Below are positions 32,976-38,056 of a stretch of DNA of 64,000 nt, piece by piece; position 1 is the stretch's first letter; each line of letters begins with the position of its first letter. Origin of the DNA: Chlorella sorokiniana (lineage: Eukaryota; Chlorophyta; Trebouxiophyceae; Chlorellales; Chlorellaceae); the NCBI GenBank assembly GCA_025917655.1, contig CP084611.1:2108001-2172000 (forward strand), written 5' to 3'. A program made the translations under genes and the position numbers. The notes under the pieces were generated by a model, which saw nothing but the letters and a program-made list of their open reading frames with translations, was not told the origin of the DNA and ran no database searches.

Positions 32976-34868
32976 TCACTCCCGCGCCGCCAGCCTGTCC
33001 ACCACCACGTTGATGTCGATGCTCTGCCCGCGGCTGGCCATCTCCTCGATGACGCGGCGCACCTGCGGCACAAGGGGGTGGGAAATGGGGCGGCGCGGGT
33101 CGGGGGCATGCGTGTGGCCCCAAGAAGCGCGTCTACGTGTGACAGGTGAGACAGGGCAGGCCGGGCCAGCAGGTGACCAAGCAGCCCTGCCCCCAGCGCC
33201 CAGCATGCGGGGTGGACGGAGCCTCACGTCTGCGCGGGAGAAGCCCATGACTGCGATGTCGTCCACCACCTTCTCCAGCGGCACATTCTGGGTGCGGGCA
33301 GACACCTGGGGGGGGCGGGGGGCACGCAGGAGCTGGGTCGAGGGCAGGAGCTGCCCATTAGCCCGCCCCCGGTTGTGAGCGGGTCCAGGCAAAGGCACAC
33401 CCAGCCATCGCTGCCCGGCAAACCCAGCACCCGCACCTGCTGCGAAGGCTGTGAGGCCGAGGGCCGCGAGGGCGGTGGGGCGGCGGGGCGGCCGTAGCCG
33501 GGTGGCGGGGGAGGGATGGGGCCCAGCCCACCGCTGCCGTACGAAACAGGCGGAGGCGGGTAGCTGGTGCCGCCACCAGAGTACGAGGGGGAGAAGTTGG
33601 TGGCTGGTGGCGGCGGGGGCCCATGGTGTGGTGGGCGGGCGGCGGCCCGCTGGACGCCACCGGTGGCGGCGGGGGCATGGGCGTGGAATGCGGCGGCGGC
33701 AGCGGCGTGCTGTACGGAGAAGGTGGCTGGCCATACTGCTGCTGCTGCTGTGAGGGCACCGAGGGCGGCTGAACCTGCACCGGAGGCGGTACAGGTGGGC
33801 CGTAGGCCTGCCCTGGCGGCAGCTGCGGCGCCTGCTGCTGCTGCTGCTGATAAGGCGGCGGGGCCTGGTGCTGCGGCGGCTGGTGGTGGTGGCGTGGGGC
33901 ATAGCCCCCGCTGCTGTAGTCAGGCTGGGGCTGGGAAGTCGGGAGGGCAAGCTGCTGCGGGGCTGGCGCAGTGGGCTGCGGCTGCTGCATGGGCTGGGGC
34001 GCGGGGGTGCGGTGGGCGCTGAAGAGTAGGCTGGCGACGGTGGCTGGGCAGCCTGGGGGGCTGGGAGGACCGGGGCAGGAGCCACGGGCAGCGCAGCGCT
34101 GGTGGCTACAGCTGGCGGAGCCACTGCCAGGGGCGCTGGCGTCGATGCCAGGGGTGCAGCAACGGGGTCGACGACGGGTGCGGGAGAAGGGGCCGCATCT
34201 GCGGGCTGTGCCGGCGCTGCCGCGGCCGCGTTGGCCGCCACCGCCGCCTCAGGGGCAGCTGGCAGCGTCCCGGCGGCGCTGGCGCTGGCCAGCTTTGCCA
34301 GCTCCGCAGTTGCCTCTGCCAGCTCCTGCTTGTCGCGGATGATCTGCACAGAGCGGTGCACCTCTCGCAGCGTCTTCTCTAGCCCCGTGAGCCGCTCCTT
34401 GGCAGCATCCTCGCGCAGGCCCGCCACCGCCTGCAGGTCAGTCACCACTTGACTGATCTGTTCCGTGCGGTTTTCCAGGCTCTCCAGACGCCGGTCGATG
34501 TCCTCCAAAATCTTCTGCAGGCTGCCGCTGAACTTCTGAAACACCTGCTGCACGGCTCCCTCCAGTTCTTTACTGGAGTCTTTGCGCTGCAGGGAGCAGG
34601 TGGGCTGGGGATGAGGCACAGCAGGCTGGGCGGCCATGGGCACTTCGGGGCTTGCGATCACGACCGAAGACGGCCCAGACACCGCCCGCACGCACCATAG
34701 GCAGGCCGGGCATCGCAGCCGTGCTTGCGGCACGGGTGGCCTGCGAAGGAGGATCCGAGGCTGCTGTGGGGCTGACCAGCACGTCATCGCCCGAGGAGGG
34801 GGCTTCTGCTGGCCCCCGTTCGAGGCGCCCGGCTGCTTGGGCAGCAAGTCCGCAAAAAAATCGGCCAT
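32976..34868 (-). CDS. FLOE-like DUF1421 protein (prion-like, coiled-coil)
   Basis: This resembles Arabidopsis FLOE1, a seed protein that phase-separates on hydration and tunes germination under water stress. Order of parts: an N-terminus rich in Ser/Asp/Ala (MADFFADLLPKQPGAS, then SGDDVLVSPTAASDPPSQ); a coiled coil (FQKFSGSLQKILEDIDRRLE) with the hallmark EVHRSVQIIRDKQELAEA, nearly identical to the EVHRSVQILRDKQELAD region of FLOE1; a Pro/Ala stretch; a Gln/Pro/Ser/Tyr-rich prion-like domain (PYQQQQQQAPQLPPGQAYGP); and the terminal DUF1421/UBA-like block VPLEKVVDDIAVMGFSRADV with RVIEEMASRGQSIDINVVVD and a final RLAARE. Frame changes near 34798-34802 (G run) and in the Pro-rich middle probably reflect sequence error. 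It diverges from the UUAT-like gene. Confidence 0.86.
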   Translation of the reverse strand: MADFFADLLPKQPGASNGGQQKPPPRAMTCWSAPQQPRILLRRPPVPQARLRCPACLWCVRAVSGPSSVVIASPEVPMAAQPAVPHPQPTCSLQRKDSSKELEGAVQQVFQKFSGSLQKILEDIDRRLESLENRTEQISQVVTDLQAVAGLREDAAKERLTGLEKTLREVHRSVQIIRDKQELAEATAELAKLASASAAGTLPAAPEAAVAANAAAAAPAQPADAAPSPAPVVDPVAAPLASTPAPLAVAPPAVATSAALPVAPAPVLPAPQAAQPPSPAYSSAPTAPPRPSPCSSRSPLRQPRSSLPSRLPSPSLTTAAGAMPHATTTSRRSTRPRRLISSSSSRRRSCRQGRPTAHLYRLRCRFSRPRCPHSSSSSMASHLLRTARRCRRRIPRPCPRRHRWRPAGRRPPTTPWAPAATSHQLLPLVLWWRHQLPASACFVRQRWAGPHPSPATRLRPPRRPTALAALGLTAFAAGAGAGFAGQRWLGVPLPGPAHNRGRANGQLLPSTQLLRAPRPPQVSARTQNVPLEKVVDDIAVMGFSRADVRLRPPRMLGAGGRAAWSPAGPACPVSPVTRRRASWGHTHAPDPRRPISHPLVPQVRRVIEEMASRGQSIDINVVVDRLAARE

Positions 34869-36199: not shown

Positions 36200-38056
36200 A
36201 TGGGCACTGTCACAACCGCTTTTGTTATAGCATCATGGTAAGTGGTTGACAGCGATCTCCTTGCGCCCCCTGCATGGCCGATTGGAAGGGCATGGCTGGT
36301 TTCGTCTTGCCCCCCGCTGCCGCCAGCTAGATACCAGCACGTCTTCAGCCCTTACCTTGCTGGGCTTGCTTTGCGTAGTCAGCCCTGTTTGCCTTATCTC
36401 ATGCAGGTATGGCAGCAACATAGGCGTCCTCCTCCTCAACAAGTACTTGCTGACCATTTTTGACTTCAAGTGAGCGGCAGCTGGGCGGCGTGCGGGAGGG
36501 AGCGCCTGGCGCTCCACGCCTGGCGCTCCAACGTGCCTGTCCCGACTGCGCGATGCAGGTGCCCCGTGTTCCTGACGCTGTGCCACATGGTGGCGTGCTC
36601 ATGCATGAGCTACGGCGTGGCGGCATCGCGCATGGTGCAGCTGCAGGCGGTCAAGTCGCGGCAGCAGTTTTACAAGATCTCGCTGCTGGCCCTGGTCTTC
36701 ACGCTGACCGTGGTGCTGGGCAACGTGAGCCTGCGCTTCATCCCCGTGTCGTTCAACCAGGCCATCGGCGCCACCACGCCCGTCTTCACCGCTGCGCTGG
36801 CCTACGCCATCATGCACACGGGAGGCGCCCGCGTCTACCTCTCCCTCATCCCCGTGGTGGCGGGCGTGGTGGTGGCCAGCGGCGCGGAGCCGCTGTTCAA
36901 CATGCTGGGCTTCCTGGCGGCGGTGACGGCGGCGTGCGCGCGCGCTGAAGAGCGTGCTGCAGGGCCTCATGCTGGCCGACTCGCACGAGCGCATGGACTC
37001 GCTGTCGCTGCTCATGTACATGGCACCCGTGGCGGTGGTGGCCCTCATACCCACCACGCTGCTGTTCGAGCCCGACGCCCCCTCCGTGGCAATGGAGCTG
37101 GGCAAGAACGGGAGTGAGTGGCGCCGCTCGCGACAGCACCCCGGGGGCGTGCAGCCCATCCCCGCTGCATCGCGGCGTGTCGCGCTCACGCTGCCCGCGC
37201 GCCCGCCCTGCCCGCCCCCTGCTGCCAGGCTTCTGGGTCCTCCTCTTCCTCAACTCCTTCCTCGCCTACTTTGTCAACCTCACCAACTTCCTGGTCACCA
37301 AGCACACCAGCGCCCTGACGCTGCAGGCACGCACAGCGCTTCCGCCAAGGCCACGCAGACGCGCCGCGCCTACGCCTGCGCCGCCACGCAGCAGCAGCAG
37401 GCAACCACCCAGCCTGCCTCCTGCCCGCCCCCTGCAGGTGCTGGGCAACGCCAAGGGCGTGGTGGCGGTGGTGGTGTCGCTGCTCTACTTCCGCAACCCC
37501 GTCAACTTCTACTCCGTGTTTGGCTACGCCATCACCGTCACGGGGTGGTCATGTACTCACAGGCCAAGAAGGCGGCCAAGAAGGCGGCGCTGCTGCAGAG
37601 GGTGGCCAGCGGCGACCCCGGGGTGGCGGCAGCGCTGGACCGTGCGGAGCAGCTGGCGGCGGGGGAGGGCAGCCAGGCGGGGGCGGCAACGGCGGCGCAG
37701 CGCACGGCGCAGTGGCGGAGGCTGCGGCGTTGCTGCGCTCGGCTGACAAGCTGGGAGCCAAGTGAGTGATGGCTCCAGGATGCAGGGAGGGGTGTGGGAT
37801 GCCCCTAGCCACTGCTGCTGGCGTGCGCCAGCCAGAGGTGCCCAGCCAGCGGTGGCGGTGGCGCACCTGCCCAACCTGCCTGCCCCCACCCCCCAACACC
37901 CATCCCCTTCCTGCTTGCAGCGGGCTCGCCGGCCCCACCCTCATCAACATCCCTGCCAATGGCTCCGTTCGGGAGCAGCAGCTGTCGCGGGCGCCCATAC
38001 TGGCGCCATCCGCGGGCCCCATGCCGCGCGGCTTCTCATCTGTGTATGAAGTCTGA
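36200..38056 (+). CDS. UUAT-like nucleotide-sugar / triose-phosphate translocator family (KT group)
   Basis: A ten-helix DMT-superfamily carrier. Arabidopsis relatives At5g04160 (UUAT1) and At3g11320 move UDP-uronic acids into the Golgi for wall polysaccharide synthesis; the substrate here is inferred. Exon 1 is only 38 bases ([12 protein letters not shown], then TG before donor gtaagt) and joins to give [17 protein letters not shown]. Then [94 protein letters not shown] (Lys-Thr signature), and [20 protein letters not shown]. The C-terminal tail is long for the family and begins [13 protein letters not shown]. Frame changes near 36940 (GC repeat) and 37542-37545 (G run) are likely errors. 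Stop is at 38054-38056. Confidence 0.9.

Follow-up and report, generated by a model that had tools for sequence, protein, structure and literature searches.

The minus-strand gene that runs from an ATG at 34868 to a stop codon at 32976 is probably a green-algal gene of the FLOE (DUF1421) family, apparently present in a single copy, whose product would act as a cytoplasmic condensate scaffold, a role suggested by what is reported of the family. All coordinates refer to the window, i.e. the whole stretch of 64,000 nt of Chlorella sorokiniana DNA that was analyzed, and published work is cited from retrieved passages. Membership in the FLOE family is well supported by the sequence.

The DUF1421 domain and the gene model

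The first-pass annotation had placed a DUF1421 block at the C terminus, and this was borne out by the Pfam profile. When the exons 33305-33228 and 33062-32979 were joined, the spliced C-terminal domain gave a significant match to PF07223 (DUF1421), scoring 43 bits where the cut-off is 22.8 (E 4.2e-11). The unspliced frame scored 28.5 bits (E 1.4e-6) and covered profile positions 17 to 43 only. Splice ends and phase point to three likely introns of 109, 131 and 165 bases, each with GT...AG ends, and the gene is read as follows.

34696..34868, minus strand: exon 1, start codon, then a short N-terminal part of about 59 residues spread over two frames
34587..34695, minus strand: intron 1, 109 bases, GT...AG, placed by splice ends and phase
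34290..34586, minus strand: exon 2, coiled-coil part, 99 residues, contains EVHRSVQIIRDKQELAEA, two long helices predicted
34003..34289, minus strand: exon 2, Ala/Pro-rich linker, assigned by composition
33437..34002, minus strand: exon 2, Gln/Pro/Ser/Gly/Tyr-rich low-complexity part, frame 2 then frame 1
33306..33436, minus strand: intron 2, 131 bases, GT...AG, placed by splice ends and phase
33228..33305, minus strand: exon 3, start of the DUF1421 UBA-like domain, MGF motif
33063..33227, minus strand: intron 3, 165 bases, GT...AG, removal completes the DUF1421 match
32976..33062, minus strand: exon 4, remainder of the DUF1421 domain and stop codon

Intron 3 is the firmest of the three, because its removal extends the DUF1421 match to profile positions 4 to 43. 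Introns 1 and 2 are placed by splice ends and phase only; when the low-complexity part is read as Q/P/S-rich, the intron 2 donor keeps phase with exon 3. The positions 32976 and 34868 thus hold as the stop and start of the gene, but since three introns are likely, they do not delimit one uninterrupted coding sequence. The N-terminal part is predicted to be short, with Asp and Ser making up 20.3% of its 59 residues, and a DS-rich domain is not clearly visible in it.

A profile search of the assembly (38.8 Mb in 15 contigs) located DUF1421 at one place at E <= 0.001 and in none of 14 control genomes. By this search, the gene is single-copy in the assembly. The chlorophyll a/b-binding family matched 41 stretches of the assembly, counted exon by exon and with a Synechococcus control also matching, and the host is therefore taken to be a green-type photosynthetic eukaryote. 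A search of the assembly for LEA_4 gave no match, but with the control genomes equally silent this is no evidence of absence.

The MGF motif occurs in UBA domains. As the C-terminal domain scored below the cut-off of the canonical UBA profile PF00627 (12.4 bits vs 22.4), this UBA-like domain is at most a candidate ubiquitin binder. Nothing of note came from a PDB sequence search with the domain (two rows, best E 0.11), and an NCBIfam search returned one row at E 0.076, far below its cut-off.

Two plus-strand genes lie nearby. The convergent neighbor at about 31930-32634 matches the CorA-like Mg2+ transporter family (PF01544, 32.1 bits vs 27, E 1e-7, from exon pieces joined by eye) with a GMN motif, and is presumably MRS2-like. 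On the other side, a gene of the triose-phosphate-transporter (TPT) family at 36464-37117 and 36945-37115 matches PF03151 (E 2.1e-22). The TPT gene shows an apparent frame change near 36930-36945, within a GC dinucleotide run, and the piece after the change has no Pfam match by itself.

The coiled-coil exon

The exon that starts at 34586 encodes EVHRSVQIIRDKQELAEA at 34364-34311, so that the coiled coil with this peptide, as first described, was found in place. The peptide may be a coiled-coil hallmark of FLOE1, as the first-pass annotation proposed. Folded alone from its single sequence, the exon product was modeled with helices at residues 2-54 and 59-104 (mean pLDDT 79.1, pTM 0.43). A coiled-coil or putative nucleation region, consisting of two long predicted helices, is thus present before the disordered stretch.

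In a DNA search of the assembly with this exon, its own locus was the sole match. Foldseek with the model gave 797 matches at E <= 10 and none at E <= 0.001, and the titles of the 50 listed of these 797 suggest helical segments from proteins that are unrelated. Among Pfam families, 56 matched at E <= 1; the 25 of them that were listed all fell below their cut-offs and were judged generic coiled coil, the best being DUF4363 (23.1 bits vs 27.5). The PDB sequence search yielded eight rows of no note (best E 0.14), and a text search of papers for the peptide found no match. No relatives of the exon were found among 40 pattern matches in viral contigs or among 532 in prokaryote genome contigs; as these collections are viral and prokaryotic, the result has no bearing on the distribution in algae.

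Placement within the FLOE family

FLOE proteins are described as having a nucleation domain, a coiled coil, a C-terminal UBA domain, and DS-rich and QPS-rich disordered regions (PMC12448315). The order of coiled coil, Gln/Pro/Ser/Tyr-rich middle and DUF1421 block that had been noted in this gene matches the order given there for the family. Arabidopsis FLOE1 has, by published description, the same domain set as this gene if the Q/P/S reading of the latter is right (PMC12448315, PMC11435361). In PMC12448315 (2025), FLOE1-like proteins are reported only from seed plants and monilophytes, whereas FLOE2-like homologues were found in some green algal lineages and form a clade with Arabidopsis FLOE2 and FLOE3 and Physcomitrium FLOE2L-1. 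Because the algal members are placed in the FLOE2-like clade, 'FLOE1-type' is probably the wrong branch for this gene, and the role of FLOE1 in seeds cannot apply to an alga. The proposal of a FLOE-type homologue therefore stands for the family, on the DUF1421 profile and the published domain order, but probably not for the FLOE1 branch. Set against the published description of the FLOE2-like clade (PMC12448315), this gene shares the coiled coil, the C-terminal UBA/DUF1421 domain and, in the reading that crosses two frame changes, the Q/P/S-rich disordered stretch. It differs in that its N-terminus is short and shows no clear DS-rich domain, and in having an Ala/Pro-rich linker between the coiled coil and the Q/P/S stretch.

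The occurrence of a member in a seedless alga was already on record: in addition to the green-algal homologues, Dorone et al. 2021 are credited with showing, in a transient assay, that representatives from algae and bryophytes phase-separate (as cited by PMC12448315). The genomes listed in PMC12448315, not all of which need carry the gene, include Chlamydomonas, Volvox, Dunaliella, Coccomyxa, Botryococcus, Micromonas and Ostreococcus. In the text retrieved, PMC5485742 mentions FLOE/DUF1421 genes solely in a cloning list, and the retrieved parts of PMC12173016 and PMC10010603 hold nothing on algal FLOE. Among the listed matches of an open-licence literature search with FLOE and alga terms, we found no FLOE protein tested inside an alga.

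Membership in the family leaves room for more than one job. Rather than sensing water, the protein might have a job linked to ubiquitin or proteostasis, to nutrients or to cell division, with condensation that is constitutive or triggered by a signal other than water; we rate this a little short of an even chance, and it is compatible with the scaffold reading rather than exclusive of it. We take the Arabidopsis DUF1421 protein At4g28300 to be FLOE1. Phosphorylation of At4g28300 rises upon TOR inhibition (PMC7584452), which favors a job unrelated to water, as does the role of a moss FLOE2-like protein in the 2D-to-3D growth transition, for which the authors propose UBA-mediated protein degradation (PMC12448315); it is with the FLOE2-like proteins that the algal members are reported. 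On the other hand, FLOE1 itself forms hydration-dependent condensates in seeds (PMC10473230, PMC10713925, PMC11435361).

Reading frames of the low-complexity region

The Ala/Pro linker comprises 95 residues (A 40%, P 24.2%). The low-complexity stretch after it is 189 residues long and contains 33.9% P, 15.9% Q, 10.6% S, 8.5% G and 5.3% Y; in it, Q, P and S together account for 60.3% and only 4 residues are charged, in a reading that spans two frame changes. The Gln/Pro/Ser/Tyr-rich middle of the first-pass annotation is thus present, but it does not share the frame of the coiled coil: whereas the latter lies in frame 0, the Q/P-rich part is read in frame 2 (34002-33615) and the P/G/S/Y-rich end in frame 1 (to 33437). 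A third change is required in the N-terminus, ahead of intron 1. For each of the three, a run of five C residues is available as the site (34802-34798 in the N-terminus, 34007-34003 and 33619-33615); as the gene contains 15 G/C runs of five or more, this placement is partly a choice.

Frame 0 is open all the way from 34868 to the stop at 32976, and if the middle were truly in this frame, it would be Arg/Ser-rich and devoid of a prion-like domain. A synonymous-codon score, trained on 400 codons that include the coiled-coil and DUF1421 exons of the gene itself, prefers frame 0 in all five windows of the middle (34028 to 33788), against the Q/P/S reading. In the end part, however, the same score favors frame 1 in 3/3 windows (33608 to 33488), as the Q/P/S reading predicts. 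Frame 0 is preferred in none of the four windows of the Ala/Pro linker (34268 to 34088), inside or just before which the other two frames, 1 and 2, run into stops (34108 and 34251), and the N-terminus gave a mixed result. The codon-score windows did not settle the choice of frame.

Other measures speak for the Q/P/S reading. The third-base profile of the middle diverges least in frame 2 (0.07, vs 0.20 in frame 0 and 0.58 in frame 1) and is nearly even in the end part (0.13 vs 0.16 for frame 0), but this test is unreliable too, because it picks frame 1 in the linker, where frame 1 has a stop. Amino-acid entropy in the middle is 2.99 for frame 2 and 3.19 for frame 0; frame 1 has 2.96 there, yet is broken by a stop at 33922. 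For the end part the values are 2.97 for frame 1 vs 3.39 and 3.13. Moreover, an uninterrupted frame 0 would split the DUF1421 domain with an insert of 55 residues that has GT...AG ends, and removing this insert lifts the match from 28.5 to 43 bits. Taking these results together, we regard a frame-0 middle as improbable.

Homopolymer runs and the frame changes

We took 20 stretches of the assembly, 200 kb in all, and compared the lengths of their G/C runs with one order-2 Markov simulation. Runs of five were in excess (712 observed vs 476 modeled), while runs of six (92 vs 132) and seven (12 vs 38) were scarce. Runs of eight or more were not lacking (34 vs 15), and run lengths are therefore not simply capped. 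Within the 64-kb window, an order-1 simulation gave the same direction for C runs of five (156 vs 91.4) and six (17 vs 29.2); G runs of five numbered 151 vs 99.2 and those of six 29 vs 28.4. Given the excess of five-runs and the scarcity of six- and seven-runs, miscalled homopolymers are the likely, though not proven, cause of the frame changes. By the same pattern, further genes of the assembly may also contain miscalled homopolymers and frame errors.

That the changes are genuine and the gene is decaying, as three of them in one gene and the presence of runs of eight or more might suggest, is a shade less probable still than a frame-0 middle, given that the run-length pattern fits miscalling, that the neighboring TPT gene likewise changes frame, and that coiled coil, DUF1421 domain and splice ends have all been retained. 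Because of frame changes near G/C runs, the prion-like stretch may be overlooked or corrupted when this assembly is annotated automatically.

A candidate condensate scaffold

As a member of the FLOE family, the protein would act as a cytoplasmic condensate scaffold. By analogy with the family, the coiled coil would self-associate and seed assembly, the low-complexity stretch would drive reversible condensation, and the UBA-like domain would recruit client proteins, perhaps ubiquitinated ones. Water sensing, on which the sequence itself has no bearing, may be one input; the moss work and the TOR link suggest others. For FLOE1, condensation requires the QPS region (PMC10473230, PMC11435361), and condensates formed without the DS region are solid or gel-like (PMC10473230, PMC10713925, PMC11435361). 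A more specific proposal, doubtful in our estimate, is that the sole FLOE protein of this alga scaffolds condensates in response to osmotic state or hydration and has a DS-rich brake that is slight or missing. If it were true, water-dependent condensation by the FLOE family would predate land plants and seeds. As a chlorophyte-type gene that is apparently single-copy, it may allow the ancestral job of FLOE to be tested without paralogues and without seeds.
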